Assembly (NCBI GenBank): GCA_013141115.1
Contig: JABFRP010000002.1
Coordinates: 2,530,647 to 2,594,646, forward strand
DNA: 64,000 nt
Direction of reading: 5' to 3'
DNA from: Ferruginibacter sp.
GTDB lineage: Bacteria; Bacteroidota; Bacteroidia; Chitinophagales; Chitinophagaceae
Shown: positions 37,200-54,195 of the stretch, in pieces
Layout: every line of letters begins with the position of its first letter
Numbering within the stretch: the stretch's first letter is position 1
Translations under genes and position numbers: made by a program
The notes under the pieces: generated by a model
What the model was told of the DNA's origin: nothing
What the model saw: only the letters and a program-made list of their open reading frames with translations
The model's database searches: none

Positions 37200-40100
37200 A
37201 TGAATCTTACAGAAATATCAATCAAACGTCCATCGCTGATAATCGTACTTTTTAGTGTGCTTACTTTATTAGGTGTTATTGGATATAAAAATCTTAGTTA
37301 CGAACTGATGCCCGATTTTAATCAGCCGGTCGTAGTTATTAAAACAGCCTACCCCGGAGCCGAACCCGGTGAAGTGGAAACATCTGTTTCAAGAAAAATT
37401 GAAGACGCTTTATCTAATATGGAAGGCGTAGATTATCTGGTTACAAAATCTTTACCCAATGCCTCTATTATTATTGCCAACTTAAAATACGGTACCAACC
37501 TGGATAAAGCAATGCAGGATGCCCAACGCTACATTGATAATATCCGCAAAGATTTACCGGTAGATATTTTAAGCCCGGTAATGAGTAAGGTGTCGCCGAA
37601 TGATTTGCCGATAATGTCTGTCAGTGCCACAAGTAATTTGCCTGCCACTGCATTTTATCAAAAAATGAAAGATGAATACTTGCCGCAAATACAACAGTTG
37701 AAAGGAGTGGCGGAGATTACTATTTTAGGTGGCGAAGAAAGAGAAGTACAGGTAAAAGTGAACCAGGATAAATTGAAACTGTTTAAACTATCGCTTTCGC
37801 AGGTGGTAGATGCGGTTAACCGCTCAGGGCTTGATTTACCAGCAGGTAAAATACAAACAGACAAAGAAAATAGTTCGGTGAGGCTTAGCGGAAAATTTAT
37901 AACAATACAAGATATAAAAAATGTGCAGGTAGCGATGCCTGTTGCCGGCAGCCCGGTGTATTTAAAAGATGTGGCAATTGTAAGCGATGGAGTTAAAGAA
38001 ACAACTTCCATCAGCCGTTACAATGGCAAAAACGGTATTGGACTAATGTTGAAAAAGCAGGGCGATGCCAACGCTGTTGATGTTTCAAAATTGGTTCGCA
38101 ATAAATTCAAAACTATTGAAGCACAAAATGCAGTTGCAGGAGTTAAGTTTATTATTGCAGATGATAGCACTGATAATACTATTGCCGCAGTTAATTCAGT
38201 AGTGTTCGATCTGATTTTGGCAGTGCTACTGGTTTCGCTGGTAATGCTTTTATTTCTGCGGAGTTTTAGAAACTCATTAATTGTAATTGTTGCCATTCCA
38301 ACATCTTTGGTTACCGCTTTTGCGGTGATGTGGTTGTTGGGTTATACACTTAATTTAATGACCTTGCTTGCCATGTCATTAATCATCGGTATCCTGGTAG
38401 ATGATGCCGTGGTGGTATTAGAAAATATTCAGAAGCATTTAGACAAAGGAAAAGAGAAAAGGGTTGCTGCAATGGATGGCCGTATGGAAATTGGTTTTGC
38501 AGCATTGTCTATCACCTTAGTGGATGTTGTAGTGTTTTTACCAATCCTTTTTTTACAGGTTTTTGTGGCTGATATGCTTAAACAATTTTCGGTGGTGGTG
38601 GTTACTTCTACGCTCACCAGTTTACTGGTAGGCTTTACATTGACACCCTGGTTAGCTTCACGAATTGGCAAGAAAGAAGATTTACAACCCACTAACTTTT
38701 TCAATCGCTTCCTGCTTTGGTTCGAACTTCAGTTGGATCAATTCATCAACTGGTATGGCAAACAACTGGAATGGGTTTTAAGCCATAAACTAATTTTTAC
38801 AGGAATCGTATTGCTGCTTTTTGCAATTACTTTAGGGATAATGAAGCAAGGGATCATTGGCAAAGAATTAATTTCTACCGGTGATCAGGGTAAGTTTCGT
38901 ATGGCTTTAGAATTTGATAAAACTACATCTATCCAACAAAATAATTTAATAGCGCAACAGGTAGAAACTTATATTCTGCAACAAAAAGAAGTGGCAACTG
39001 TATTTAGCAATGTTGGAGGACCGAGCACAGGTATTGGAAGTTTAGGTGTAGGCTCTGCAAATAAAACTGAATTTACCATCCAGCTAAAATCTAAAAAAGA
39101 ACTCAATAATTTGCCTACAGAGTCCTTTATGAAAACATTACGGGAAGATTTAAAATTAAGATATCCTTCAATAAATTATTCCATGGCAGCACTGGGATTA
39201 ATTCCACGTTCAGCTCCCATTGAAATTACTTTAAGTAGCAACAATCTGGATTTGGTAATGGCATCGGGTAATGAATTAAAATCAATTGTAGAAAAGATCC
39301 CCGGTGCCGACAATGTTCGTTTATCAGTAGAAGCAGGAAGCCCTGAATACAAGATAATTCCCGACAAAGATAAGATGCAGCGTTTAGGATTAACAACTGC
39401 TTATGTAGGTTTAAATTTAAGAACAGCCTTTACAGGAAATGATGATGCAACACTTACAGAAAACGGAACAGAGTATCCTGTAAGAATTTGGCTGGATGAA
39501 TTTGAACGAAAAAATTATGATGATGTAAAACGATTATCTATTGTAAATCCGATGGGTTTGCCAATAGAAGTTTCGCAGTTTGCAAATGTAGAGAGAGATA
39601 ATTCGCCTTCGCTGTTAGAAAGAAAAGACCGCCAGCCTGCTATAACACTTACTGCCGATGCTTTGGGCCGTCCATCCGGAACGGTTGCAGATGAAGTAGT
39701 AGCGTATCTCAAAAAAAATCCTTTGGCAGAAGGAATAGACATGACATGGGGAAGCGATATAAAAAGGCAGAACGATAGTTTTGGTGCATTGGGTTCTGTT
39801 TTAATGATTTCATTTTTGCTGATTTATTTAATTATGGTGGCATTGTACGACAATTTTGTGTATCCCTTTGTTGCTTTGTTTTCCATTTTGGTGGCAACCA
39901 TTGGTGCTTTTCTTGCATTGAATTTGGCGTTAAGTAATTTAAGTTTATTTGCCCTGCTTGGTTTAATAATGCTGATGGGCTTAGTAGTTAAGAATGCCAT
40001 TTTAATTGTTGATTTTACCAATCAGTTAAAAGCACAGGGCATGTATTATAAAGAGGCTTTAATAAAAGCAGGCAAAGAACGTATGCGTCCGATATTAATG

Positions 40101-40343
40101 ACCACATTGGCAATGGTGTTCGGTATGCTACCTATTGCATTGGCAAAAGGAACTGCCAGCGAATGGAAAAATGGATTGGCCTGGGTAATTATTGGTGGGC
40201 TTCTGTCATCATTGATATTGACAGTTTATTTAGTACCGATGGTTTATTATGTGGTGGATAGATTGAAAGAGAAATTTGGGAAAAACAAAACTGTGCCATT
40301 ACCGCAAACCAATTTGCAGGAGCCGGTAGCAGTAAGAGGATAA
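37200..40343 (+). CDS. RND efflux transporter, inner-membrane permease
   Basis: 1047 aa; LTEISIKRPSLIIVLFSVLTLLGVIGYKNLSYELMPDFNQPVVVIKTAYPGAEPGEVE; AcrB-type repeats. Confidence 0.96.
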   Translation: MNLTEISIKRPSLIIVLFSVLTLLGVIGYKNLSYELMPDFNQPVVVIKTAYPGAEPGEVETSVSRKIEDALSNMEGVDYLVTKSLPNASIIIANLKYGTNLDKAMQDAQRYIDNIRKDLPVDILSPVMSKVSPNDLPIMSVSATSNLPATAFYQKMKDEYLPQIQQLKGVAEITILGGEEREVQVKVNQDKLKLFKLSLSQVVDAVNRSGLDLPAGKIQTDKENSSVRLSGKFITIQDIKNVQVAMPVAGSPVYLKDVAIVSDGVKETTSISRYNGKNGIGLMLKKQGDANAVDVSKLVRNKFKTIEAQNAVAGVKFIIADDSTDNTIAAVNSVVFDLILAVLLVSLVMLLFLRSFRNSLIVIVAIPTSLVTAFAVMWLLGYTLNLMTLLAMSLIIGILVDDAVVVLENIQKHLDKGKEKRVAAMDGRMEIGFAALSITLVDVVVFLPILFLQVFVADMLKQFSVVVVTSTLTSLLVGFTLTPWLASRIGKKEDLQPTNFFNRFLLWFELQLDQFINWYGKQLEWVLSHKLIFTGIVLLLFAITLGIMKQGIIGKELISTGDQGKFRMALEFDKTTSIQQNNLIAQQVETYILQQKEVATVFSNVGGPSTGIGSLGVGSANKTEFTIQLKSKKELNNLPTESFMKTLREDLKLRYPSINYSMAALGLIPRSAPIEITLSSNNLDLVMASGNELKSIVEKIPGADNVRLSVEAGSPEYKIIPDKDKMQRLGLTTAYVGLNLRTAFTGNDDATLTENGTEYPVRIWLDEFERKNYDDVKRLSIVNPMGLPIEVSQFANVERDNSPSLLERKDRQPAITLTADALGRPSGTVADEVVAYLKKNPLAEGIDMTWGSDIKRQNDSFGALGSVLMISFLLIYLIMVALYDNFVYPFVALFSILVATIGAFLALNLALSNLSLFALLGLIMLMGLVVKNAILIVDFTNQLKAQGMYYKEALIKAGKERMRPILMTTLAMVFGMLPIALAKGTASEWKNGLAWVIIGGLLSSLILTVYLVPMVYYVVDRLKEKFGKNKTVPLPQTNLQEPVAVRG

Positions 40344-40408: not shown

Positions 40409-40957
40409 ATGGATGAAGTTGAATTAATACATAGCATTCTGGAGGGTGACCAGCAGAATTATACGATATTGATAAAACAATACCAGTCTAGTGTATTTCG
40501 TACAGCTATGGGACTGCTGCATAATAAGGAAGATGCAGAAGAAATTGCGCAGGATGTTTTTGTAAAAGTTTATCAGTCACTCTCTTCCTATAATGGTAAG
40601 GCGGCCTTTTCTACATGGCTTTACCGCATTACCGTAAATACCAGTTTAAATTTTCTAAGAAAGAAAAAACGCAAAACTTTCTGGGCCGGATTGGCAGATA
40701 TGTTGCAGGTTGCGTCAAAAGACAAATCTGCGGAAGCCTTATTAACAGAGCGTTCAGACCATGCTGTTATTCAGCAAGCTCTGGATGCATTGCCCGAAAA
40801 ACAGCGGCTGGCATTTGTATTTACCAAATATGAAGAACTTCCCCAAAGGCAAGCAGCCGAAATTATGAACATCAGCGAAGGTGCTGTTGAACAACTGGTC
40901 ATCCGTGCAAAAAACAATCTGAAAAAAATATTAGAAAAAGAAGGGTATGGGGCATAG
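40409..40957 (+). CDS. ECF-type RNA polymerase sigma factor
   Basis: YQSSVFRTAMGLLHNKEDAEEIAQDVFVKVYQSLSSYNGKAAFSTWLYRITVNTSLNFLRK; LPEKQRLAFVFTKYEELPQRQAAEIMNISEGAVEQLVIRAKNNL. Confidence 0.95.
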   Translation: MDEVELIHSILEGDQQNYTILIKQYQSSVFRTAMGLLHNKEDAEEIAQDVFVKVYQSLSSYNGKAAFSTWLYRITVNTSLNFLRKKKRKTFWAGLADMLQVASKDKSAEALLTERSDHAVIQQALDALPEKQRLAFVFTKYEELPQRQAAEIMNISEGAVEQLVIRAKNNLKKILEKEGYGA

Positions 40958-41000
40958 GATTTTTTAAACATTAATTGTCTAACTATTAAACAGCGATACA

Positions 41001-41309
41001 ATGAGCAGTAAAAAAGATATTGATCAACTGATTAACAACTTTGTTGCAGCGGAAAAAGATACAGCATTCAATCCGTTTTTATCTACCCGTGTAATGGCGG
41101 CAATAGATAAACAACGGACTGAAAAATTGTTTGTTTTTTCACCCGTATGGAGAACAGCAGTGATGGCAGTAAGTCTTTTTATTGCAGTGTTTGCGGGTAT
41201 TGCAGCAGGCAGCCTTTATCAATCAAAAAATGATGTTGCTGATATGGTGCTGATGAATGATGCCAGCATGGAAAATTTTGCCTTGTACAATCAAATGAGT
41301 AATGAGTAA
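41001..41309 (+). CDS. Small single-TM protein, possible anti-sigma factor
   Basis: Directly downstream of ECF sigma; cytoplasmic N-terminus then TM VWRTAVMAVSLFIAVFAGIAAG. Confidence 0.6.
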   Translation: MSSKKDIDQLINNFVAAEKDTAFNPFLSTRVMAAIDKQRTEKLFVFSPVWRTAVMAVSLFIAVFAGIAAGSLYQSKNDVADMVLMNDASMENFALYNQMSNE

Positions 41310-41314
41310 ATGCA

Positions 41315-41839
41315 GTGATGATGAAAAGGAATCAATTATTAAAATGGGCGGTGGTTTTGCTGGTAATAACCAATGTGGTTACAATAGCAACTATTCTTTA
41401 TCATAACTACAAAGAAAGTGTCGTGGCGGATAGTGTTGCCATCAATACCGGGGCTGGTGTAAACATGCTCAACGGCAGATTTTTCCGGCAAACACTTGGT
41501 TTTAGTGAGGTGCAGATGGATTCGTTTCGGGATATAAACCAGGATTTTCGTCCTTATGCAATGGATTTAACTTTTGGAATAGATTCTTTAAAAACAGCCA
41601 TGTTTACTGAATTACAAAAAGCTGCACCGGATACCGTAGTACTAAGCAACCTGTCTGAGCAGATTGGCCAGATGCATGGTAAATTGAAATACGGAACCTT
41701 TCATTTTTATTTAAACGTAAAAAAAATATGTTCACCTGCACAGAGCGTTGAGTTGGAAAAAGCCTTTCTGCCATTGTTTAAAACCGAAAACATAACTACA
41801 CCTAATCAGCACCGGCGAAGAGGCCGGGACAACAACTAA
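41315..41839 (+). CDS. Spy/CpxP-like periplasmic stress/heavy-metal sensor protein
   Basis: N-terminal TM; NGRFFRQTLGFSEVQMDSFRDINQDFRPYAMDLTFGIDSLKTAMFTEL. Confidence 0.7.
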   Translation: MMMKRNQLLKWAVVLLVITNVVTIATILYHNYKESVVADSVAINTGAGVNMLNGRFFRQTLGFSEVQMDSFRDINQDFRPYAMDLTFGIDSLKTAMFTELQKAAPDTVVLSNLSEQIGQMHGKLKYGTFHFYLNVKKICSPAQSVELEKAFLPLFKTENITTPNQHRRRGRDNN

Positions 41840-41867
41840 TAATTTTATAACAACTAAATATTAAAAC

Positions 41868-42161
41868 ATGAAAAAGTTTATGATTGCAGCAATCTTAATG
41901 ATTGCTACCAGCGGAGTATTGTCTGCCCAAAATACAAGACCAGGCAACGGTAAACCCGGAACAAATAAAGACATGCCCACTTTTGTTGATGCAAATAAAA
42001 ACGGTGTTTGTGATACCTATGAGAGCGGCAACCGGCTGGCAGTAAAAGGAGCGGGCCAGGGACAGCGACTGAACAGGGGACAGGGAGCAGGTAATGGTAA
42101 AGGTAATGGCAGGTGTGGTGCAGGCAGGGGAAACTGTAATGGCAGAAGAAGAGCAATTTAA
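41868..42161 (+). CDS. Small secreted protein with EF-hand-like loop and Gly/Asn/Arg-rich tail
   Basis: Signal peptide; FVDANKNGVCDTYE; GAGQGQRLNRGQGAGNGKGNGRCGAGRGNCNGRRRAI. Confidence 0.6.
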   Translation: MKKFMIAAILMIATSGVLSAQNTRPGNGKPGTNKDMPTFVDANKNGVCDTYESGNRLAVKGAGQGQRLNRGQGAGNGKGNGRCGAGRGNCNGRRRAI

Positions 42162-42310: not shown

Positions 42311-42814
42311 ATGCTAATAGCTATAAGAAACTGGAAATACGAGGATTTAAACTCACTGGTATTGCATGCAAACAATATTAAAATTTGGAATAATCTCCGC
42401 AATTATTTTCCCCATCCATATACAGAAGAAGATGGCAAAGCGTGGCTGAAAAAAGTAGTGGATGCGTTGCCTGCAGTAAACATGGCGATTGATGTAAATG
42501 GACAGGCCGTGGGAGGAATAGGTTTGATATTGAATGGAGATGTGTACATCAAATCTGCAGAGATTGGTTATTGGCTAGGGGAGGAATATTGGGGGCAGGG
42601 TATTACTACCGAGGCAGTAAGGTTAATGACCGAATATGCGTTTTACTATTTTGACCTGTTGCGTTTGTATGCAGAAGTGTTTGAAAATAATAAAGCATCC
42701 ATGCGTGTGCTGGAAAAAAATGGTTACTACCTGGAAGGTGTGCGTCGCAAAGCAGTTTTTAAAAATGAAATTTTAATGGATGATTATATCTGGGTAAAAC
42801 TGAGGGCATGGTAG
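42311..42814 (+). CDS. GNAT family N-acetyltransferase (RimJ-like)
   Basis: EIGYWLGEEYWGQGITTEAVRLMTEYAFYYFDLLRLYAEVFENNKASMRVLEKNGYYLEGVRRKAV. Confidence 0.93.
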   Translation: MLIAIRNWKYEDLNSLVLHANNIKIWNNLRNYFPHPYTEEDGKAWLKKVVDALPAVNMAIDVNGQAVGGIGLILNGDVYIKSAEIGYWLGEEYWGQGITTEAVRLMTEYAFYYFDLLRLYAEVFENNKASMRVLEKNGYYLEGVRRKAVFKNEILMDDYIWVKLRAW

Positions 42815-42907: not shown

Positions 42908-43150
42908 ATGTACCTCAAAAAAAATATTGCAACCAGCGAGTCTGGTTTCATCTTCAATCCCTCCTCCGGCGACTCTTATAATGTAAATCCTGTTGCGGCA
43001 GAAATATTACAACAGTTAAAACAGGGAACAGCCCTTGCTGCAATAAAAGAAAACATCCTGAAGGATTACGAAGTAGAACCAATGCGGCTTGAACAGGACC
43101 TGGAAGATTTTATGAATCAATTGAAAGAAGCCAATCTCCTGGAGAATTAA
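42908..43150 (+). CDS. PqqD-like peptide-binding (RRE) protein
   Basis: MYLKKNIATSESGFIFNPSSGDSYNVNPVAAEILQQLKQGTALAAIKENILKDYEVEPMRLEQDLEDFMNQLKEANLLEN; internal ATG 42908 preferred. Confidence 0.75.
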   Translation: MYLKKNIATSESGFIFNPSSGDSYNVNPVAAEILQQLKQGTALAAIKENILKDYEVEPMRLEQDLEDFMNQLKEANLLEN

Positions 43151-43171
43151 AAAAAATAATAAAAATGCTTT

Positions 43172-44224
43172 ATGGAAAAGTCTGATAACCTCACAACGAT
43201 AGCCGTAACAGGATTAAATGCTATTGATAGTCCGGGACCCGGCATTGCAGTAATCAGGGCGCTGAGAGATGGGCTGGCAAAACCTTTGCGGATTATTGGC
43301 CTGTCTTATGAAACATTGGAGCCGGGTATTTACATGCATGATGTGGTGGATAAAACCTACCAAATTCCTTACCCCGCAGCGGGTTCAGATGCCTTGCTCA
43401 GGAGATTGCAGTATATACATGAAAAAGAAAACCTGCAACTCATCATTCCCAATTTTGATGCAGAACTGCACAACTTTATAAAACTCGGCCCGGTATTGCA
43501 AACTATGGGTATTGCCACATTTCTCCCAACACAGGAGCAGTTTGATGTGAGGGATAAAATCAACTTATTCAGGTTTGGACAACAACAGGGGTTAACAGTT
43601 CCAAAAGATAAAATCATCAACAGCATTGCTGAATTAAATTCCTGCGAAGAATCACTGGGCTTTCCGTTGGTTGTAAAAGGAAAATTTTATGATGCGATTG
43701 TGGCCTATACAATGGAGCAGGCACAAAAGGCTTTTTATAAACTTTCTGCAAAATGGGGCTTCCCCATTATTGTACAGGAATTTATTGATGGTACAGAAAT
43801 AAATATTGCAGTACTGGGCGATGGAAAAGGCAATGCGGTGAGCATTATTCCCATGCGAAAACTGTACATCACCGACAAAGGAAAAGCATGGGCAGGAATT
43901 ACACTGGAGGATGATAAGTTGATAAAAGTGGCCAGTGATTTTGTGAATGCCACTAACTGGAAAGGTGGCTGTGAGCTGGAAATTATGAGAACTAAAAAAG
44001 ATGAATTGTATATCATGGAAATCAATCCACGTTTTCCGGCATGGATATATTTATCGGCTGCCGCAGGGCAAAACCAGCCCGCAGCGCTTGCTAAGATGGC
44101 CATGGGAGAAGCCGTACCGGTTTTTACCGGATATGAAGTGGGCAAGATTTTTATCCGTTACTCCTGGGATCATATCACAGATATCAAAGAGTTTCACCAG
44201 GTAAGCGGGATGGGTGAATTGTAA
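43172..44224 (+). CDS. ATP-grasp domain protein
   Basis: LGFPLVVKGKFYDAIVAYTMEQAQKAF..GFPIIVQEFIDGTEINIAVLGD..GGCELEIMRTKKDELYIMEINPRFPAWIYLSAAAGQN. Confidence 0.88.
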   Translation: MEKSDNLTTIAVTGLNAIDSPGPGIAVIRALRDGLAKPLRIIGLSYETLEPGIYMHDVVDKTYQIPYPAAGSDALLRRLQYIHEKENLQLIIPNFDAELHNFIKLGPVLQTMGIATFLPTQEQFDVRDKINLFRFGQQQGLTVPKDKIINSIAELNSCEESLGFPLVVKGKFYDAIVAYTMEQAQKAFYKLSAKWGFPIIVQEFIDGTEINIAVLGDGKGNAVSIIPMRKLYITDKGKAWAGITLEDDKLIKVASDFVNATNWKGGCELEIMRTKKDELYIMEINPRFPAWIYLSAAAGQNQPAALAKMAMGEAVPVFTGYEVGKIFIRYSWDHITDIKEFHQVSGMGEL

Positions 44225-44264
44225 ATAAATATTTAGCAGGAGATCAATTTAAAAAAATTGCAGC

Positions 44265-45623
44265 ATGAAAAAAATGCTTTACGAAAGTCCTTCCATCCAA
44301 AAATTGAATGGAGGAATGATGAATAAGTTTGGAACGAGGACAGAGTATGAACCCGTAAAACAAATTGATGGTGTGGCGGTGCAAACAATGATGGCGCAGT
44401 ATGGCTCGCCTTTATTTGTTTTAAGTGAGCGAACCATACGACGCAATTATCAAAATGCCGTGAGGGCATTTAAAACACGTTATCCAAAAGTGCAGTTTGC
44501 CTGGAGTTATAAAACCAATTACCTCAATGCTGTTTGCAAAATATTTCACCAGGAGGGGAGCTGGGCAGAAGTGGTGAGCGGATTTGAATACCGCAAAGCG
44601 ATTGGCAACGGGGTGCCAGGCAATAAAATTATTTTTAATGGCCCCGAAAAAACAAATGAAGAACTGGAATTGGCAGTTAATAATGGATCATTAATTCACA
44701 TTGATCATTTTGATGAATTGTACCAGTTGATAATATTGAGTGACCAACTGAACAAAAAGCCCAGGGTAGCAATCCGTGTAAATATGGATACGGGAATTTA
44801 TCCCATGTGGGATCGTTTTGGTTTTAATTATGAAAATGGCCAGGCCTTTAGTGCACTCAGCAAAATTGTAGCATCCGGTAAAATGGAACTCATCGGTTTG
44901 CATTGTCATATCGGAACATTTATGTTATCAACCGATGCCTATGCCACTGCCGTAAAAAAATTGGGAGACCTTGCATGGAAATGCAAAACACAACTCAATA
45001 CAAGCATACAATATATTGACCTGGGTGGAGGTTTTCCATCAGCCAATACTTTAAGAGGTTCCTTTCTTCCGGGTACAGATAATGTACCATCTGTAGATGA
45101 ATTTGCTGAGGCCATTACAAATGGTTTGCTGCAACTCGGTTTTGGAGCAGATGAATTGCCCCTGCTAATTTTAGAAAGCGGCCGGGTATTAATAGATGAT
45201 GCAGGCTACCTCCTTGCATCTGTTATTGCCAACAAAAGATTAAGCGATGGCCGCCGTGCAACCATACTGGATGCGGGTGTAAACCTGTTATTCACTTCCT
45301 TTTGGTACGATCATAAAATAAGCCCGGCACAGGATTTTACACAACATTCCGAAGACATGGTATTGTATGGGCCATTGTGTATGAATATTGATGTGATAAG
45401 GCAAAGCATCAACCTGCCAATATTAAACCGTGGCGATAAAGTGGTAGTGCATAAAGTGGGTGCCTATAATATGACACAGTGGATGCAGTTTATACAAATG
45501 CGTCCCAATGTGATATTGATTGATGAACAAGGGCAAACACACCTGGTGAGAGCTGCAGAAAACCTGCAGTATGTAGAGCAACCCGAACGCATGCCCGAAC
45601 ATTTGAAACCAATTGATTTATGA
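44265..45623 (+). CDS. PLP-dependent (fold III) decarboxylase, DAP/ornithine-decarboxylase-like, with leader-like N-terminus
   Basis: FAWSYKTNYLNAVCKIFHQEGSWAEVVSGFEY..HCHIGTF..YIDLGGGFPSA; N-terminus MKKMLYESPSIQKLNGGMMNKFG. Confidence 0.88.
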   Translation: MKKMLYESPSIQKLNGGMMNKFGTRTEYEPVKQIDGVAVQTMMAQYGSPLFVLSERTIRRNYQNAVRAFKTRYPKVQFAWSYKTNYLNAVCKIFHQEGSWAEVVSGFEYRKAIGNGVPGNKIIFNGPEKTNEELELAVNNGSLIHIDHFDELYQLIILSDQLNKKPRVAIRVNMDTGIYPMWDRFGFNYENGQAFSALSKIVASGKMELIGLHCHIGTFMLSTDAYATAVKKLGDLAWKCKTQLNTSIQYIDLGGGFPSANTLRGSFLPGTDNVPSVDEFAEAITNGLLQLGFGADELPLLILESGRVLIDDAGYLLASVIANKRLSDGRRATILDAGVNLLFTSFWYDHKISPAQDFTQHSEDMVLYGPLCMNIDVIRQSINLPILNRGDKVVVHKVGAYNMTQWMQFIQMRPNVILIDEQGQTHLVRAAENLQYVEQPERMPEHLKPIDL

Positions 45624-45632
45624 TAAAAGGCG

Positions 45633-47837
45633 TTGCCTGTTAAATTGAAAAATACGACTGCTATATCATTTCTTAAGTATTTCACTGCTACGGTATTGAA
45701 CAGTTACTCCATGTTGTTCTTTAGCAACAAAAAGTTTTTTGCAATAATGGTATTGCTGGCTTCTTTCTTTAATCCTTACACAGGCTTTGCTGGTTTGGTT
45801 GCTACAATAACAGCAGCTATAGTGGCCTATTTTATTGGCTTTAGCAGGGAGCAGGTAAAGAGTGGCCTATATACTTACAGTGCTACATTGGTAGGATTGG
45901 GTATGGGTACTTTTTATGAGTTTAGTATGGGGTTTTGGATATTGCTGGTTTTGGCAACAGTATTGGCGGTATTATTATCTGCAGCCTTTATTGCCCAACT
46001 GGGTAAAAGCAATCTGCCGGCATTGTCGTTGGCGTTTATTTTTACGTTGTGGGTGGTCATTCTTTCATCCAAAGAATTTGCGGTGATTGGCCTTACTCAG
46101 CGTAATATTTATTGGCTCAATGAAATGTATGCTGCAGGAGGAACGGGATTAATCAACTTTGTGCAACGGGTAGAAACGATTGCCATGCCGGATATGTTGT
46201 CAGGTTTTTTGCGCTCATTAAGTGCCATCCTGTTTCAAAGTAATATTGCTGCAGGTATTTTGCTCAGTATTGGATTACTCTTTTTTTCACGGATTGCCTT
46301 AACCCTGATGGTGGCAGGTTATACCATTGCCATTCTATTTATTCAACTGATGGATGGTTATGCAGGAAGCGTAAATTATTATAACCTTGGTACCAATTTC
46401 ATGCTGGTGTCCGTGGCACTCGGTGGCTTTTACATTATTCCTTCTGTGCGATCTTTTTTCTGGTCGTTGATAACGGTGCCTATTTCATATATACTTGTAA
46501 TAGCACTTTGGAAGATTACCTACACCTGGGGATTACCTGTTTTTTCATTGCCATTTTGTATTACGGTTATTCTTTTTCTTTTTGTTTTGCAGTTGCGCAA
46601 AGCAGGGGGTAAAATGGTTCTTACTCCCATCCAGTATTACAGCCCCGAAGAAAATCTTTACAGGTTTACCAATAATAAAGAACGGGTGCTGAGTGATTTT
46701 TATTACTATCACCTGTCGCTTCCATTTATGGGCGACTGGACGGTAAGCCAGGGATATGATGGCACTATAACACATAAAGGAGATTGGGGAAAGGCACTTG
46801 ATTTTGTAATTACTGATAAAGAAAATAAAACCTACCAGGGCACAGGTACTGAGCCGGAACAGTATTATTGTTATAACAAACCCGTGCTGAGCCCGGCAGA
46901 TGGCATTGTAGAAGAAATAATTGATTATGTGGAAGACAATGCCATTGGAGGAAATAACACTCAACAAAACTGGGGTAATACGATTATAATAAAACACGCC
47001 GCCACACTTTATACAAAACTATCTCATTTAAAACGGGGATCATTTAAAGTGGCAAAAGGCGCTTTTGTAAAAAAAGGAGATATCCTTGCTACCTGCGGCA
47101 GTTCCGGCCGATCTCCCGAACCGCACCTGCATTTCCAGGTGCAGGCTACACCTTATATAGATTCTAAAACCCTCGCCTATCCTTTGGCTTATTTTTTACA
47201 ACAGCAAAATGGCAACAGCATAATAAAAACCTATTCAGTGCCGCTTGAAAATAATATTGTTGGCAACATAATTCCCAATGCACAATTGCAGCAGGCCTTT
47301 GATTTTAAACCGGGTTATATCATGAAAGTCACCGCAGCCGGTTATGAAGAGGAGGCATGGGAAGTGATGGTGAGTACCTATAATGAAACTTATTTTTATT
47401 GCAGCCGGCATCATGCGTATGCTTATTTCATCAACAATGGCAGCATGTTTTACTTCACCCATTATTTTGGCAACCAGCATACATTGCTTTACCTGTTTTA
47501 CCAGGCAGCTTACAAAATAGTACTCAGCACCAATAAAAAAATAACAATTACCGATAGCTTTTCACAAAACATATTTGCAACACATCCGCTAAAGTGGTTT
47601 CAGGATCTGCTGGCCCCGTTTTTTATATTCATGAAAATGAAATATACCAGTATGGTAATAAAGGATGATGATATGCTGGGTGGCGGAAACATAGTGTTGA
47701 AAAGCTATTCACAGCAATACATGCCCGGTTCTGTAAAACAAAAAATGCTGGCCGGTATAGAAATACAGCAGGGCAAACTCCATGGTTTTAATGTAGCATT
47801 TAATAATAATAAAATTGAAGCCTCATGCAAAAATTAA
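45633..47837 (+). CDS. Urea transporter-like membrane domain fused to M23 (LytM) metallopeptidase domain
   Basis: N-terminal SYSMLFFSNKKFFAIMVLLASFFNPYTGFAGLVATITAAIVAYFIGFSREQVKSGLYTYSATLVGLGMG (UT-like, repeated); C-terminal THKGDWGKALDFVI..NWGNTIIIKHAATLYTKLSHLKRGSFKVAKGAFVKKGDILATCGSSGRSPEPHLHFQV (M23 H..D and HxH). TTG start in the track; ATG at 45711 alternative. Confidence 0.8.
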   Translation: MPVKLKNTTAISFLKYFTATVLNSYSMLFFSNKKFFAIMVLLASFFNPYTGFAGLVATITAAIVAYFIGFSREQVKSGLYTYSATLVGLGMGTFYEFSMGFWILLVLATVLAVLLSAAFIAQLGKSNLPALSLAFIFTLWVVILSSKEFAVIGLTQRNIYWLNEMYAAGGTGLINFVQRVETIAMPDMLSGFLRSLSAILFQSNIAAGILLSIGLLFFSRIALTLMVAGYTIAILFIQLMDGYAGSVNYYNLGTNFMLVSVALGGFYIIPSVRSFFWSLITVPISYILVIALWKITYTWGLPVFSLPFCITVILFLFVLQLRKAGGKMVLTPIQYYSPEENLYRFTNNKERVLSDFYYYHLSLPFMGDWTVSQGYDGTITHKGDWGKALDFVITDKENKTYQGTGTEPEQYYCYNKPVLSPADGIVEEIIDYVEDNAIGGNNTQQNWGNTIIIKHAATLYTKLSHLKRGSFKVAKGAFVKKGDILATCGSSGRSPEPHLHFQVQATPYIDSKTLAYPLAYFLQQQNGNSIIKTYSVPLENNIVGNIIPNAQLQQAFDFKPGYIMKVTAAGYEEEAWEVMVSTYNETYFYCSRHHAYAYFINNGSMFYFTHYFGNQHTLLYLFYQAAYKIVLSTNKKITITDSFSQNIFATHPLKWFQDLLAPFFIFMKMKYTSMVIKDDDMLGGGNIVLKSYSQQYMPGSVKQKMLAGIEIQQGKLHGFNVAFNNNKIEASCKN

Positions 47838-49003
47838 TCATAGTAACACTGCTGGTTTTCCTGTTGGCTACAACTGCTACAAAGGCACAAACAAATATTT
47901 CTTTTGCTGCTGCCGACAGTCAATCCTATGCTTTATATGAAAAAGCACAATGGAAAACATTATTGCTATTTGGAAAAGAAGCCATTGCCAATGGGCAGGA
48001 TTTTGTTTTATTAAGAATGCGGATGGGGTATGCAGCTTTTATGCTGGGTAACTATAGCGAATCAATCAAACATTACGAAACAGTATTGAAGGAAGATACC
48101 TACAATAGCACGGCGCATTATTATATTTACTGGAGCCGGGTAAACCTTAACCAGCCGGAAATGGCAATGGCTGAAGTCAAATTTTTAACCCCCGGAATGA
48201 TTGCTGATAAAAATAGCAGGGCTGCTGCTTTTACCAATGCCGCAGTAGAGTTGAGCTTCAAGCAGGCTTCCGTAAAATCAAGAGGTAATTCCATGTATAC
48301 AAGGGTGGGCCTGGGTAACCGTTTTAGTCACGGTTTTCATATACAGCAATCAATAGCCACTTACCAGCAAAAAATCAGTGAGCCCTTACTTACAGCGGTT
48401 ACAAAAAACACTAATATAAATATCAACCAGGTAGAATATTATAACAGGGTCATGTTTAACCTTAATCGAAACTGGCAACTGAAAACTGCCTATCATTATA
48501 TTTATACGCCTTTTAATAATTTCAGGTATCACAATCACCTGTTGCTGGCAGGGATTAAATACAATGGAACCTATTTAAACATACAGGCCGATGCTATCAT
48601 TGGTAGAATTACAGACACATCCACGCAGCAATACAACCTGCAGTTGGATTTATACCCCCTTGGTAATCTTAACCTGTATAGTTTTTCCACTGCAAGTTTT
48701 CGGCAGCAAAAGGAATCAGCCTTTAATTTCAGGCAAGTGATTGGTGTAAAATTGCTGAAGCAATTATGGCTGGAAGGAAATATTACAATTGGCGAATTTA
48801 AAAACTATGCAGAAAATGATGCACTGTACGTTTACAATGCCATAGACGTTAATAAACAAAAAACAGGTATAACAGGTTACATTTTGTTAAACGAAAAATT
48901 ATCTGCCCAAATCGGTTATACTTACGAGCAACGCCAGTTATTTGGTACCACATCTACTTTTAATCAACATTCAATTACAGGAGGCCTATCATGGAAATTT
49001 TAA
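47825..49003 (+). CDS. TPR plus outer-membrane beta-barrel protein (YaiO-like)
   Basis: Signal peptide; TPR-like YAAFMLGNYSESIKHYETVLKEDTYNSTAHYYIYWSRVNL; barrel-like C-terminus ending ..GGLSWKF. Confidence 0.65.
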   Translation: MQKLIIVTLLVFLLATTATKAQTNISFAAADSQSYALYEKAQWKTLLLFGKEAIANGQDFVLLRMRMGYAAFMLGNYSESIKHYETVLKEDTYNSTAHYYIYWSRVNLNQPEMAMAEVKFLTPGMIADKNSRAAAFTNAAVELSFKQASVKSRGNSMYTRVGLGNRFSHGFHIQQSIATYQQKISEPLLTAVTKNTNININQVEYYNRVMFNLNRNWQLKTAYHYIYTPFNNFRYHNHLLLAGIKYNGTYLNIQADAIIGRITDTSTQQYNLQLDLYPLGNLNLYSFSTASFRQQKESAFNFRQVIGVKLLKQLWLEGNITIGEFKNYAENDALYVYNAIDVNKQKTGITGYILLNEKLSAQIGYTYEQRQLFGTTSTFNQHSITGGLSWKF

Positions 49004-49611
49004 AAAAATCAATGCTTGCAATGTTATCAATGTTATTGCTAAATTTTGCAACAGCACAACAAGAATCAAAGCTGCAGAGTGCTTTTTTAGAAAGCTATAC
49101 ACAGGAGTACAATAAACAATATGCAATAGCCATCACTACACTCAGCAAAGTATATGATGAGCATAGTTATGAACTTAACCTGAGGTTAGGCTGGTTAACT
49201 TATTTGAATAAAGATTACCCGAAATCGCAATTGTATTATCAAAAAGCAGTGTACCTGAAGCCTTATGCTGTAGAAGCTAAATTGGGATTGGTGCAGCCCC
49301 TGGCCGCTTTGCAAAATATAGACAAACTCCTGCAGGTATACGATGAAATATTAAAAATTGACCCACAAAATACAAAGGCCAATTACTGGGCAGGCGTAAT
49401 TTATTATAACCGCAAAAAGTATGAGCAGGCCGCAAGGTTTTTTGAGAAGCTGGTGAATCTTTACCCTTTTGATTTTGACGGTAACCATATGCTGGCATGG
49501 ACTTATTTAAACCTTGGCAGGAATGCTGATGCTAAAATTTTATTCAACAAGGCGCTGCTGATAAAACCGGGTGATGTTTCCTGTAAGGAAGGCCTGGTAA
49601 AAACAGGGTAG
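48991..49611 (+). CDS. Secreted TPR protein
   Basis: Signal peptide; repeats LGWLTYLNKDYPKSQLYYQKAVYLKPYAVEAKLGL, AGVIYYNRKKYEQAARFFEKLVNLYPFDFDGNHMLAWTYLNLGRNADAKILFNKALLIKPGD. Confidence 0.85.
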   Translation: MEILKKSMLAMLSMLLLNFATAQQESKLQSAFLESYTQEYNKQYAIAITTLSKVYDEHSYELNLRLGWLTYLNKDYPKSQLYYQKAVYLKPYAVEAKLGLVQPLAALQNIDKLLQVYDEILKIDPQNTKANYWAGVIYYNRKKYEQAARFFEKLVNLYPFDFDGNHMLAWTYLNLGRNADAKILFNKALLIKPGDVSCKEGLVKTG

Positions 49612-49721: not shown

Positions 49722-50402
49722 ATGAAAACATTAATAAAAAAATCAGGCTTTGCCTTTTTGTTAGCTGCATTTATTTTTACTGCGGCTTCCTGCACCAAAG
49801 ATGCCAACGTTGATAGCAGCAATAACAACAATAGTATGAATACTGCAAATCTTCAGGCACAAATCAGCATGCTGCCAATCGAATCTTTAAGCACCGCTGA
49901 ATTAAATACACTGTCATTAATGCGGGAAGAAGAAAAACTGGCAAGAGATGTTTACATAACCTTGTACAATAAATGGGGCGTAAATATTTTTACCAATATC
50001 AGCAAAAGCGAACAAACCCACATGGATGCTATACTAATGCTGTTAAATAAATATGGCCTGCCAGATCCTGTTGGTTCAAATGCTATCGGCGTATTTAGTA
50101 ATGCAACATTGCAGAATCTGTACACGCAATTGGTGGAGCAGGGCAGCATCAGCTTACTGGATGCTTACAAAGTAGGCGCTACCATTGAAGACCTTGATAT
50201 TTTTGATCTTAATTCAGCCCTTACAACTATCGATAACCAGGATATTCGTCTCGTGTATGATAATCTTACAAAGGGAAGCCGTAATCACATGAGGTCTTTT
50301 TATAAAAATATTTTAAGCCTTGGCAGTACCTATACCCCTCAATACATTTCCCAGGCTGCATTTGATGCCATCATCAGCAGTGCAATGGAAACCGGATTTT
50401 AA
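49722..50402 (+). CDS. DUF2202 (ferritin-like) lipoprotein
   Basis: Lipobox TAASCTKD; LSLMREEEKLARDVYITLYNKWGVNIFTNISKSEQTHMDAI..SRNHMRSF. Confidence 0.88.
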   Translation: MKTLIKKSGFAFLLAAFIFTAASCTKDANVDSSNNNNSMNTANLQAQISMLPIESLSTAELNTLSLMREEEKLARDVYITLYNKWGVNIFTNISKSEQTHMDAILMLLNKYGLPDPVGSNAIGVFSNATLQNLYTQLVEQGSISLLDAYKVGATIEDLDIFDLNSALTTIDNQDIRLVYDNLTKGSRNHMRSFYKNILSLGSTYTPQYISQAAFDAIISSAMETGF

Positions 50403-50419: not shown

Positions 50420-51031
50420 ATGAAAAATGTTTTGTTCTTTACAGTGATTATGTTGCAATCGTTAATTGGGTTTGCACAGCAAAATACTTTATTAACCAAA
50501 AATGAAAATGAAGCCATTCTTTATATGAGAGAAGAAGAAAAATTAGCAAGGGATGTGTATGATTCGATGTACGTAAAATGGGGAGGTAATCCATTTGGTA
50601 ATATTCGCTATAGCGAACAGGTACACATGGATAAAATGAAAATGCTGATTACTACTTACAGTTTGCAGGATCCGGTTGTAACAACCAAGAACAGTCATGG
50701 AATGTTTATAAACCCAACACTGCAAAAATATTACAACGAGCTTGCAGCAACAGGTAGTCAGTCTTTAACAGCCGCATTAAAAGTGGGTGCCAAAATAGAA
50801 GAGCTGGACATTGTCGATCTGGAAGAAAGAATTAAACAAACGCAAAATGAAAATGTCATCAACTCTTTTGAGTTTTTAAAAAGGGCATCTCATAATCACT
50901 TGCGGGCATTTGTGCGCAGGCTTAAAATGGAGGGTGTAAATTATGAACCAGTGATACTGAATAAAGTATCCTTCAATAAAATAATTAAAGCAGAAAAGGC
51001 CAAAGGCAGATGTAAACAAAAATGTGATTGA
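50420..51031 (+). CDS. DUF2202 (ferritin-like) secreted protein, tandem paralogue
   Basis: LYMREEEKLARDVYDSMYVKWGGNPFGNIRYSEQVHMDKM..SHNHLRAFVRRL. Confidence 0.88.
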   Translation: MKNVLFFTVIMLQSLIGFAQQNTLLTKNENEAILYMREEEKLARDVYDSMYVKWGGNPFGNIRYSEQVHMDKMKMLITTYSLQDPVVTTKNSHGMFINPTLQKYYNELAATGSQSLTAALKVGAKIEELDIVDLEERIKQTQNENVINSFEFLKRASHNHLRAFVRRLKMEGVNYEPVILNKVSFNKIIKAEKAKGRCKQKCD

Positions 51032-51093: not shown

Positions 51094-51141
51094 TATAAGG
51101 CATACAAACTATTGGGGGCATTTTTAAAAGAAACTCAAAAT

Positions 51142-51155
51142 GTAACAAAAGTCAC
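51142..51155. promoter_or_regulatory. Candidate Crp/Fnr-type palindrome GTAAC-aaaa-GTCAC
   Basis: 59 bp upstream of the SQR-like start at 51214. Confidence 0.5.
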
Positions 51156-51213
51156 CAAACAATGTATTTACAAAAAATACATTTACAGGGAACAAATTTT
51201 AAACAGAAACGAT

Positions 51214-52416
51214 ATGCCTGCTAAAAAAATCATCATTGTCGGGGGCGGCAATGCCGGACTTTCCGTTGCTTCCCAACTTTTGCGTAAAGACAAAAGTCTT
51301 GACATAAGTATCATTGATCCATCCGAAAACCATTACTATCAACCTGCATGGACATTGGTAGGAGCTGGTGTTTTCGACATCAATAAAACAGTTCGTGCCG
51401 AGGCGGATTATATTCCTCATGGAGCAGCATGGATTAGAGATGCTGTTGAAAAATTTCTTCCTGAAGAGAATAAAGTAGTATGTAAAACCGGTGATGTTTA
51501 CCAATACGATGCATTGGTAGTATGCCCCGGCATACAATTAGACTGGCAAAAAATAAAAGGCTTTAAAGAAACACTGGGGAAAAACAGTGTAACCTGCAAC
51601 TACTCATTTGATGTAGCGCCTTACACCTGGGAGCTGATTAAAAATTTTAAAGGCGGAACAGCAGTTTTTACAAACCCTGTTGGGCCGGTTAAATGTGGCG
51701 GAGCGCCACATAAAATAATGTACCTGGCTTGCGATTACTGGCGCAAGCAGGGGATTTTGGATAAATGTAAGGTGCATTTTTTATCAGGTGCCGGAGTAAT
51801 TTTTGATGTAAAGGAATATGCAGCCACGCTTACAGAAATAATAAAGAATAATAATATACAGCCACATTTTACTGTTAACGTAACTGAAATTGATGGGGTT
51901 GGTAAAACAGTTTATTACGAAGAAAAAGATGCCGCCGGTATTGCAATGCGAAAGGAAATGAAATTTGATATGTGTCATGCCGTACCCCCGCAATCTGCAC
52001 CGGATTTTATAAAAAACAGCCCGCTTTCCGATCCAAATAATCCTTTCGGTTTTGTTGAAGTTAACAAAGCCACCATGCAGCATAGCCGCTTTGCAAATGT
52101 ATTTGCCCTGGGTGATTGTACCAATGCCCCTGCAAAGAAAACCGGCGCTGCCATTCGCAAACAAGCACCGGTTGTTGTTACCAATCTTTTGGCCGTATTG
52201 GCCAATCAGCCGGTTATTGCACAATATGATGGTTACAGTGCCTGCCCCATTCCTACACAATACGGTAAGCTGATGCTGGCTGAATTTGATTACAGCAACA
52301 CCCCAAAAATGACTTTCCCTTTTGACCAGGTAAAACCAAGATGGACGATGTGGATCTTAAAGACTAAAATATTACCGTGGTTGTATTGGAATAAAATTTT
52401 AAAAGGCACCGCCTGA
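51214..52416 (+). CDS. Sulfide:quinone oxidoreductase-like FAD protein
   Basis: MPAKKIIIVGGGNAGLSVASQLLRKDKSLDISIIDPSENHYYQPAWTLVGAG; PVGPVKCGGAPHKIMYL; ALGDCTNAPAKKTGAAIRKQ. Confidence 0.88.
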   Translation: MPAKKIIIVGGGNAGLSVASQLLRKDKSLDISIIDPSENHYYQPAWTLVGAGVFDINKTVRAEADYIPHGAAWIRDAVEKFLPEENKVVCKTGDVYQYDALVVCPGIQLDWQKIKGFKETLGKNSVTCNYSFDVAPYTWELIKNFKGGTAVFTNPVGPVKCGGAPHKIMYLACDYWRKQGILDKCKVHFLSGAGVIFDVKEYAATLTEIIKNNNIQPHFTVNVTEIDGVGKTVYYEEKDAAGIAMRKEMKFDMCHAVPPQSAPDFIKNSPLSDPNNPFGFVEVNKATMQHSRFANVFALGDCTNAPAKKTGAAIRKQAPVVVTNLLAVLANQPVIAQYDGYSACPIPTQYGKLMLAEFDYSNTPKMTFPFDQVKPRWTMWILKTKILPWLYWNKILKGTA

Positions 52417-52425
52417 AAATATAAA

Positions 52426-52478
52426 CCTGTTAAAATAAAAAAGCGCAATCAATAATTGCGCTTTTTTATTTTAACAGG
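52426..52478. terminator. Bidirectional terminator, 24-bp perfect stem
   Basis: CCTGTTAAAATAAAAAAGCGCAAT-caata-ATTGCGCTTTTTTATTTTAACAGG between convergent genes. Confidence 0.9.
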
Positions 52479-52482
52479 GAAC

Positions 52483-54195
52483 TTATACTGCTGCAGTTTG
52501 TAAGTTGGTTACTTTAATTGCTGGAATTTTATTTGCAGATAAACTCATTTCATCCGTGCTTATTTTCCAGGTATGATATCCGCCGGAAAGATTAACTACA
52601 TTGTTGAACCCATTTTGCCTGAGTATTCTTTGTGCCAGGTAACCTCTTAATCCTGCCTCGCAATAAATAAAAATATTTTTACCCTTAGGTATTTCGTCCA
52701 AACGTTTCCTGATTTCATCAACAGGAATATTTATGGCATCAGCAATTTTACCTGCATCATATTCATCTTTTCTTCTCACATCAATCAGCAGGTCATTTGC
52801 TTGTATATTTTCAATTTCATTCCAGTAAAATATTTTCAACCGTTCCAGCAAAATATTTTCGGCAACAAAGCCAGCCATGTTCACCGGGTCTTTTGCAGAT
52901 GAGTAAGGTGGAGCATACGCATGTTCAAATTCAATAAGGTCGTAAATGGTTTTGTTTTGTTTGATGTAAGATGATAAAATATCCAGTCGTTTGTCCACAC
53001 CATCAAAGCCTGCAATTTGTGCGCTTAACAAGCGGCCGTTATCAGGTGCAAAGGCAATTTGAATAGCCATTTGTTTTGATCCGGGATAATAACCGGCATG
53101 AGAACCATTATGTGTGGTAGAAACAATATGTTTGATACCTGCTGCTTTTAAATGTTTGGATGCTGTACCTGCTGTGCCCAACGTCATGTCGAAAACTTTT
53201 ACAATAGCAGTATTTATGGAGCCATGATATGCCTGCACATTACCCAGCACAATATTGTTAGCACAAATGCGGCCTTGCTTATTAGCTGGTCCTGCCAAAT
53301 AAGTGATCATCGATTGGCCGGTGATGGGATTTTCAAATTCAATAGCATCGCCTACGGCATAAATATCCGGGTTACTGGTTTGTAAAAATTCGTTTACCCA
53401 AATACCTCTTGCAGTACCAATTTTTAAACCAGCTTGTACGGCCAGTCTTGTATCGGGTCTTACGCCAATGGAAAGTATCACCATATCAGCAGTAATTACT
53501 TCGCCATTGTTTAAGGCCACTTCAATCTGATGATCAATTTTATTAAAGCCGGTAACAGCGGTGTTTAAATGAAGGTCAACTCCCTTTGAGCGTATATGTT
53601 GCTGTGCAATTGCTGCAATAGGAAAATCAACAGGAGCTAAAATTTGATTGCCCATTTCAATAACTGTAACATGTAACCCCAGGTCGTGAAAATTCTCTGC
53701 CATTTCCAGGCCAATAAATCCTGCACCAATTACTACCGCCTTTTTTATATTTTTTTGTTGTACATAACTTTTGATGTAATCAGTGTCTTTTACATTTCTT
53801 AAAGTGAAAATCCCTTCACTGTTAATACCAGGTAAAGGTGGCCGCAATGGTTCTGCACCTGGCGATAATACTAATTTATCGTAATCCTCTTCATAGGTTT
53901 TGCCAGTAGTTTGATTAAATGCTGTTACTGTTTTCTTTACAGGATCAATAGCCGTTACTTCGGTCATTACTCTTACGTCAATATTAAAACGCTGATTAAA
54001 AGATGCAGCGGTTTGTACAAATAATTTATTGCGGTCTTTAATTACGTCGCCAATATAGTAAGGTAGCCCGCAATTGGCATAAGAGATATATTCCCCTTTT
54101 TCAAAAATTACAATTTCTGCATGTTCATCCAGCCTTCTTAATCTTGCTGCTGTGCTGGCTCCACCTGCTACGGCACCTACAATAATGTATTTCAT
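52483..54195 (-). CDS. CoA-disulfide reductase-like FAD oxidoreductase fused to C-terminal rhodanese
   Basis: MKYIIVGAVAGGASTAARLRRLDEHAEIVIFEKGEYISYANCGLPYYIG; C-terminal DVRRKDEYDAGKIADAINIPVDEI..IFIYCEAGLRGYLAQRIL. Confidence 0.93.
   Translation of the reverse strand: MKYIIVGAVAGGASTAARLRRLDEHAEIVIFEKGEYISYANCGLPYYIGDVIKDRNKLFVQTAASFNQRFNIDVRVMTEVTAIDPVKKTVTAFNQTTGKTYEEDYDKLVLSPGAEPLRPPLPGINSEGIFTLRNVKDTDYIKSYVQQKNIKKAVVIGAGFIGLEMAENFHDLGLHVTVIEMGNQILAPVDFPIAAIAQQHIRSKGVDLHLNTAVTGFNKIDHQIEVALNNGEVITADMVILSIGVRPDTRLAVQAGLKIGTARGIWVNEFLQTSNPDIYAVGDAIEFENPITGQSMITYLAGPANKQGRICANNIVLGNVQAYHGSINTAIVKVFDMTLGTAGTASKHLKAAGIKHIVSTTHNGSHAGYYPGSKQMAIQIAFAPDNGRLLSAQIAGFDGVDKRLDILSSYIKQNKTIYDLIEFEHAYAPPYSSAKDPVNMAGFVAENILLERLKIFYWNEIENIQANDLLIDVRRKDEYDAGKIADAINIPVDEIRKRLDEIPKGKNIFIYCEAGLRGYLAQRILRQNGFNNVVNLSGGYHTWKISTDEMSLSANKIPAIKVTNLQTAAV

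Follow-up and report, generated by a model that had tools for sequence, protein, structure and literature searches.

A stand-alone RiPP recognition element and a leader-like tail on a PLP decarboxylase in a conserved six-gene cassette of Bacteroidota

Results

Organization of the operon

A stretch of 64,000 nucleotides from Ferruginibacter sp. (GenBank assembly GCA_013141115.1, contig JABFRP010000002.1, positions 2,530,647 to 2,594,646 of the forward strand; 'the window' below, with positions counted from its first nucleotide) contains an operon of six + strand genes. They encode a PqqD-fold protein, assigned here as a recognition element for ribosomally synthesized and post-translationally modified peptides (RiPP recognition element, RRE), an ATP-grasp ligase, a fold-III pyridoxal phosphate (PLP) decarboxylase, a urea transporter (UT)-fold/M23 fusion, a probable outer-membrane protein (OMP) and a tetratricopeptide repeat (TPR) protein. 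The reading that we favour, as probable though well short of certain, is that the stand-alone RRE recognises a leader mimic fused to the decarboxylase in a six-gene pathway. The open reading frame (ORF) list gives intergenic gaps of 21, 40 and 9 nt followed by two 13-nt overlaps, in exact agreement with the initial annotation, and Pfam finds each of the components that it had named (PqqD, ATP-grasp, fold-III PLP decarboxylase, UT plus M23, TPR). Its description of the last two genes as a TPR/outer-membrane pair holds for the 206-aa protein, a clear TPR protein, and less well for the 392-aa protein, which has only weak TPR matches. The features are as follows.

42908..43150, + strand: PqqD-fold RRE, 80 aa (PF05402 6e-14; lasso RREs as top PDB profile matches; conservation and covariation).
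42986-42988 and 43097-43099, + strand: codons of PqqD N27 and D64, the predicted leader-contact residues.
43172..44224, + strand: ATP-grasp carboxylate-amine ligase, 350 aa (ATPgrasp_Ter 1.4e-11, ATP-grasp_3 1.3e-8; motif; PDB relatives).
44265..45623, + strand: fold-III (alanine-racemase fold) PLP decarboxylase with leader-mimic N-terminal tail, 452 aa (Orn_Arg_deC_N 2.2e-29).
44280..44333, + strand: putative leader-mimic motif YESPSIQKLNGGMMNKFG, decarboxylase residues 6-23 (consensus [Y/F]E[R/S/K]Px[I/L]xxxxxGxxxKxG).
45633..47837, + strand: UT-fold membrane domain, M23/LytM domain and C-terminal beta-rich domain (UT 2e-48, Peptidase_M23 2.7e-16).
47825..49003, + strand: secreted protein with weak TPR matches, probable outer-membrane beta-barrel, 392 aa (signal peptide; C-terminal ...GLSWKF).
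48991..49611, + strand: secreted TPR protein, 206 aa (TPR_2 1e-14; signal peptide by sequence reading).

Homologues of the decarboxylase begin equally far from the conserved tail, which supports 44265 as the start of this gene.

Conservation of the cassette across Bacteroidota

A scan of one genome per species gave at least 580 candidate stretches, at least 571 of them encoding relatives. Gene order was compared in the best 80 of these at least 571 matches, which span Chitinophagaceae, Sphingobacteriaceae, Hymenobacteraceae, Bacteroidales-like and Flavobacteriia-labelled records; the order PqqD, ATP-grasp, decarboxylase, UT/M23, OMP, TPR is found in nearly all of the loci that are long enough, with the 206-aa TPR gene conserved as the final cassette gene. 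In close relatives holding the ATP-grasp gene, PqqD, ATP-grasp and decarboxylase stay together. Clustering the ORFs around 89 loci yields exactly six core families (65-89 loci each), and the next-commonest family, which holds an upstream His_kinase/LytTR pair, occurs in 39. In a phylum-wide sample of 247 genomes that includes other classes, the set of 23 genomes with relatives of the ATP-grasp enzyme is identical to the set with relatives of the decarboxylase, and PqqD, ATP-grasp, decarboxylase and UT/M23 are present in all 20 distant loci inspected; most of these 20 keep the TPR gene, and in several classes the OMP gene is either missing or no longer recognisable. Because the gene order recurs in about 80 loci and in the 20 phylum-wide ones, the operon is not a chance arrangement, and conservation of the PqqD/ATP-grasp neighbourhood, which the initial annotation had proposed as a check, goes far beyond chance. 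The six genes are a strongly conserved cassette, and a co-functional operon is supported. In the clade of the window there is a seventh neighbour, a GNAT N-acetyltransferase gene directly upstream of PqqD (42311..42814, + strand; Acetyltransf_3 7.9e-27), an accessory found at this place in 30 of the 89 loci and in the Chitinophagaceae-like clade only.

Several loci depart from the common layout. The TPR gene is in tandem duplicate downstream of the OMP gene in five loci of the Flavobacteriia-labelled group (L073, L075, L079, L083, L086). One contig (genome G220, contig C1) has two cassette matches of equal score near its opposite ends, at about 3928 and 3735344, which are either duplicate copies or an assembly overlap. 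A record labelled as a 'Bifidobacterium breve' metagenome-assembled genome (L117) carries a Bacteroidota-type cassette and is probably a mislabelled or contaminated bin.

The PqqD protein and the decarboxylase tail

The PqqD protein scores 52.6 bits with PF05402 (cut-off 23.4), and in the PDB the top matches of its profile are the lasso RREs TbiB1 (1.8e-11) and TfuB1 (2.9e-8); the PqqD fold assigned from the first reading is thereby confirmed, and by similarity the protein is a lasso-type RRE. HPr-rel-A (TIGR04353), NCBI's name for the protein, was rejected as an identity; the score of 38.5 lies just above the cut-off of 35, but the neighbours are the six-gene cassette and include no HPr-kinase-related partners. 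In the LppB-LppA complex, Asp70 of LppB forms a hydrogen bond with the leader Tyr, and Asn33 holds the backbone in place at the Pro kink (PMC13381572). Hidden Markov model alignment places D64 and N27 of the PqqD protein at these positions. Among the solved RREs the residue at the D64 position is Asp in TbiB1, TfuB1 and LppB, and Gln in PbaB1, which has a WxxP leader with Trp. In the first PqqD sequence set Asn27 is present in 109 of 109 and Asp64 in 106 of 109 sequences. The predicted hydrophobic leader-pocket residues (L72, F68, Y54, I33) are conserved, and D64 occurs in all loci with a Tyr tail.

Every cassette decarboxylase has a 23-residue N-terminal extension with the consensus M..K..YERPxIxKMNxGLMNKFG. 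Its Y..P.[ILV] core is found in 91 of 91 loci, all 20 distant loci have [YF]..P.[ILV], and the tail is conserved in all 139 loci compared; Pro9 and Lys21 are each present in 116 of 116 sequences, Gly23 in 114 and Gly17 in 112, and a variable segment follows Gly23. In the AlphaFold2 model the predicted local distance difference test score (pLDDT) is below 50 for residues 1-26 and about 95 for the body, so that residues 1-26 are predicted to be disordered; a tail that is conserved yet disordered is as expected for a docking peptide. The true LysA enzymes of cassette genomes are encoded by separate genes, and the eight that could be read (8/8) have no such tail. Discrete lasso RREs recognise a [Y/W]xxPx[L/V/I/F/A] motif (PMC13381572; PMC12710340), and this is the motif that the decarboxylase tail matches. 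Judged by its residues, the tail imitates a lasso leader peptide.

A motif scan of about 90 loci, with a spacing too strict for this leader type, found no small ORF carrying the motif. In the window's own genome the Y-E-x-P pattern has 68 matches (122 in the reversed control), none of those inspected being a plausible start-proximal leader. The remark in the initial annotation that no stand-alone precursor gene is visible is thus borne out for these loci and for the own-genome matches inspected. Its idea of a peptide-guided system is supported with one change, in that the guided peptide appears to be the N-terminal tail of the decarboxylase and not a missing precursor.

Covariation of the tail with the RRE

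If the tail binds as leaders do in the solved complexes, Asp64 of the RRE should follow Tyr6 of the tail. In the first set the three PqqD sequences (of 109) without Asp64 belong to exactly the three loci with a FERP instead of a YERP tail. After enlarged sampling (139 loci) Tyr6 goes with Asp64 in 124 of 124 cases, a Phe tail goes in 15 of 15 with another residue at RRE position 64 (Tyr in 9, Ser in 5, His in 1), and there are no mixed cases. A clade-effect control compared columns at least 95% conserved in the Tyr loci; between the Tyr and Phe groups Asp64 alone changes among the 8 conserved RRE columns and Tyr6 alone among the 145 of the decarboxylase, and in the ATP-grasp enzyme one column changes mildly and another is disjoint but variable. 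In a tree of the ATP-grasp enzyme and the decarboxylase body the Phe loci form one clade (Shimodaira-Hasegawa-like approximate likelihood ratio test, SH-aLRT, 96), with one Tyr-to-Phe switch; an independent-pairs test contains one pair of lineages. After this switch RRE residue 64 took three different states. On the present alignments the single switch strikes exactly the residue pair that the solved RRE-leader complexes predict. The FxxP-tail clade, with Tyr, Ser or His at position 64 (L217, L218, L219, L270-L272, L276-L278, L280, L308-L312), is by its residues a natural alternative class of RRE-leader specificity.

The decarboxylase is distinct from LysA

The top PDB match of the decarboxylase is N-citrylornithine decarboxylase [7kh2, 1.3e-79, 271 bits], as against 1.1e-57 and 199 bits for diaminopimelate (DAP) decarboxylase, with BtrK (7ru7/2j66) a detectable relative. 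An alignment with the N-citrylornithine decarboxylase FslC has the GP.CM..D loop in common. The PLP lysine K83, R184, H215, G254-256, R307 and C372 are invariant, and the catalytic residues named in PMC7857480, PLP lysine included, are invariant among the cassette decarboxylases. The clade of N-citrylornithine decarboxylase and BtrK works on conjugated or carrier-bound substrates, BtrK on carrier-bound glutamate (PMC7857480).

Identity with LysA is rejected on several counts. The TIGR01048 score is 214 bits (cut-off 297.9), and a separate true LysA is present in 14 of 16 cassette genomes tested, including the window's own (G000:C1:300056, 377 bits). In DAP decarboxylase an Arg and a Glu face the distal end of the substrate; by alignment these substrate-site residues are replaced here by Thr344 and Met373, invariant in 44 of 44 sequences. 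An N-citryl-amino-acid decarboxylase (FslC/FigC) was rejected as well, since the FslC model gives 211.5 bits against a cut-off of 500 and no conserved siderophore synthetase family occurs among the ORFs around the 89 loci. The first description, a fold-III PLP decarboxylase acting on amino acids, is right as to the fold and needs revision as to the type, which is not the generic amino-acid/DAP one.

The ATP-grasp ligase and the membrane and secreted proteins

The C-terminal E.NPRFPAW motif of the ATP-grasp enzyme (E283, N285) is invariant. Its PDB relatives are the carbamoyl phosphate synthetase (CPSase) large chain and 2pn1, and PRK12767/CPSase-like enzymes are the nearest families. A graspetide synthetase was considered and set aside; no precursor with a leader and a modifiable core was found in the loci or among the own-genome motif matches inspected, and the nearest families point elsewhere.

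The fourth protein comprises a UT domain (residues ~6-320), an M23/LytM domain (~364-504) and a C-terminal beta-rich domain (~510-734). Its structure model (pLDDT 86.5) matches dvUT [3k3g, E = 3e-14, TM-score 0.84 on target] and the LytM domain of DipM (1.5e-7). In UT-fold proteins the two termini lie on a common side of the membrane, which is the cytoplasmic one in characterised members; charge counts under the positive-inside rule favour neither side clearly, and the periplasmic location proposed at first for the peptidase is a possibility only. At the equivalents of the urea-slot residues Gln24 and Glu187 of dvUT the UT domain has M/V/I/Q/A and A/S, respectively. Because the urea-holding residues are lost the substrate is probably not urea; of the 'urea-transporter/M23 fusion' proposed at first, the UT fold (PF03253 2e-48) and the M23 domain stand, and 'urea transporter' is a fold name only. 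The zinc-site residues H381, D390, H465, H498 and H500 occur in 35 of 35 sequences, with the H...D and HxH motifs present, and the domain is a putative peptidase with an intact predicted zinc site. The 392-aa protein keeps its position in most loci and has no Pfam barrel match; its signal peptide and C-terminal aromatic residue, both identified by sequence reading, make it a probable outer-membrane beta-barrel.

Neighbouring genes

Directly 3' of the operon lie genes for two secreted DUF2202 proteins (window 49722-50402 and 50420-51031), relatives of which are also found near the cassette in L048 and L061. Beyond these, 51112-54195 holds a sulfide:quinone-oxidoreductase-like gene and a convergent disulfide-reductase-plus-rhodanese-like gene, named by sequence reading only and probably a sulfur-handling pair. 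On the 5' side, downstream of an RND efflux gene (37200-40343), the stretch 40409-42161 encodes what read as an ECF-like sigma factor, a short membrane protein, a periplasmic protein of 174 aa and a small protein bearing an EF-hand-like DANKNGVCD motif; these genes are partly conserved 5' of the cassette in L048 and L091.

Discussion

In the scheme that we favour the PqqD RRE would bind the N-terminal tail of the decarboxylase, with Tyr6 paired to Asp64, and for this direct contact motif, conservation and covariation make a strong case. The RRE would then serve as a clamp between the decarboxylase and the ATP-grasp ligase; docking of the one enzyme onto the other is its most likely role. The ligase would convert an amino acid into an amide, and the alpha-carboxylate of this conjugate would be stripped off by the decarboxylase, in the manner of citrylornithine decarboxylase and BtrK with their conjugated substrates, to leave an amine or amide. 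More tentatively, this compound might be moved by the modified UT-fold/M23 protein and the secreted OMP and TPR proteins, and in the clade of the window the GNAT enzyme may acetylate the amine. The product, the export route and the membrane topology in this scheme are all putative.

Some points weigh against it. The Tyr6/Asp64 covariation, as read from the tree, is one evolutionary event and not several. Lys21, Gly17 and Gly23 lie beyond the RRE-binding part of the tail, and docking to the RRE alone does not explain them; they may dock to the ATP-grasp enzyme or serve as its substrate. The contact between the RRE and the ATP-grasp enzyme is one that we infer, and the fold points to no unique substrate.

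The conservation of Lys21 and Gly23 outside the RRE-contact part also speaks for a different use of the tail, namely as the substrate itself. The RRE would present the tail, the ATP-grasp enzyme would load an amino acid on Lys21 and the attached decarboxylase would act on the tethered group, the tail serving as a built-in carrier arm. That BtrK, which acts on glutamyl-BtrI, is a detectable relative (PMC7857480) and that the tail is predicted to be disordered while tethered to the enzyme both fit. Lys21 could instead serve for docking to the ATP-grasp enzyme, and its modification is a proposal only; we regard this use of the tail as unlikely, though it deserves more weight than any other alternative. 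Less probable still is that the tail represents a genuine RiPP precursor attached to the enzyme, to be cut off after modification, perhaps by M23, and exported as product. The leader-like part is conserved, the segment after Gly23 varies, the M23 zinc-site residues are invariant, and UT, OMP and TPR proteins could export a product, but there is neither a hypervariable core with conserved modifiable residues nor a classical RiPP exporter, and the enzyme body belongs to the most conserved parts.

Stand-alone precursors are the usual ligands of RREs (PMC7470986; PMC12710340), and in a conventional RiPP pathway the precursor gene would lie elsewhere in the genome, the tail being leader-like by descent only. 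We consider this distinctly improbable; the scan of about 90 loci, imperfect as its pattern is, and the inspected own-genome matches gave no candidate, and the covariation ties the RRE to the decarboxylase tail. A lysine-pathway operon built around a DAP decarboxylase can claim the 214 bits with the LysA model, but that score is below the cut-off, most of the cassette genomes tested have their own LysA and the Arg and Glu are gone, so that we give it hardly any credence. Recognition of the decarboxylase tail by the RRE remains the explanation that we prefer.

The initial annotation recognised no named pathway in this gene combination, and our search of the open-access literature likewise found no characterised one; nor did it yield a description of an RRE whose ligand is a metabolic enzyme bearing a leader mimic, within a precursor-less pathway, or of the Phe/non-Asp variant. 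The nearest systems each share a part. The discrete lasso RREs (TbiB1/TbiA, TfuB1/TfuA) and the LPP pair LppB/LppA have the same RRE family, the YxxPx[L/I/V] motif and the Asp-Tyr and Asn-backbone contacts (PMC13381572), whereas in the cassette a metabolic enzyme of 450 aa carries the fused leader, a Phe/non-Asp variant exists in addition, and protease B2, cyclase C, kinase and stand-alone precursor are all missing. FigC/FslC (rhizoferrin) and BtrK (butirosin, BtrI-S-Glu) are closest to the decarboxylase in solved fold and sequence, and there too a partner enzyme makes the conjugate first (PMC7857480); unlike these systems the cassette has no siderophore synthetase and no acyl-carrier protein, and it does have the leader-mimic tail and the RRE. 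Bacteroidota graspetide/ATP-grasp RiPP clusters likewise place an ATP-grasp enzyme in a peptide-guided setting (PMC8939145), but the cassette enzyme is CPSase/PRK12767-like and no precursor gene accompanies it; genes for a decarboxylase, a urea transporter or M23 go unmentioned in the text of that paper on ATP-grasp RiPP clusters. The RRE-like domain of BmdC, in a non-ribosomal peptide synthetase pathway, is another RRE fold outside a RiPP pathway and a relic according to its authors (PMC8795117), whereas the PqqD protein keeps its leader-binding residues, and these covary with the ligand. RRE-leader recognition as such was already known; the new part would be an enzyme-fused leader mimic as the ligand of an RRE in a system without a precursor.

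An RRE is taken as the mark of a RiPP cluster, and those who mine genomes search its surroundings for a short precursor. If our reading is true, many 'orphan' RREs may have enzymes as ligands, and RRE-based mining must examine enzyme termini; the natural Phe/non-Asp class would be useful for engineering orthogonal RRE-leader pairs. For the Bacteroidota, the scheme offers a first testable molecular hypothesis for a widespread uncharacterised pathway (at least 571 loci among the sequenced species), and should Lys21 turn out to carry the substrate, the cassette would be a carrier-peptide assembly line made from RiPP recognition parts and spread phylum-wide.

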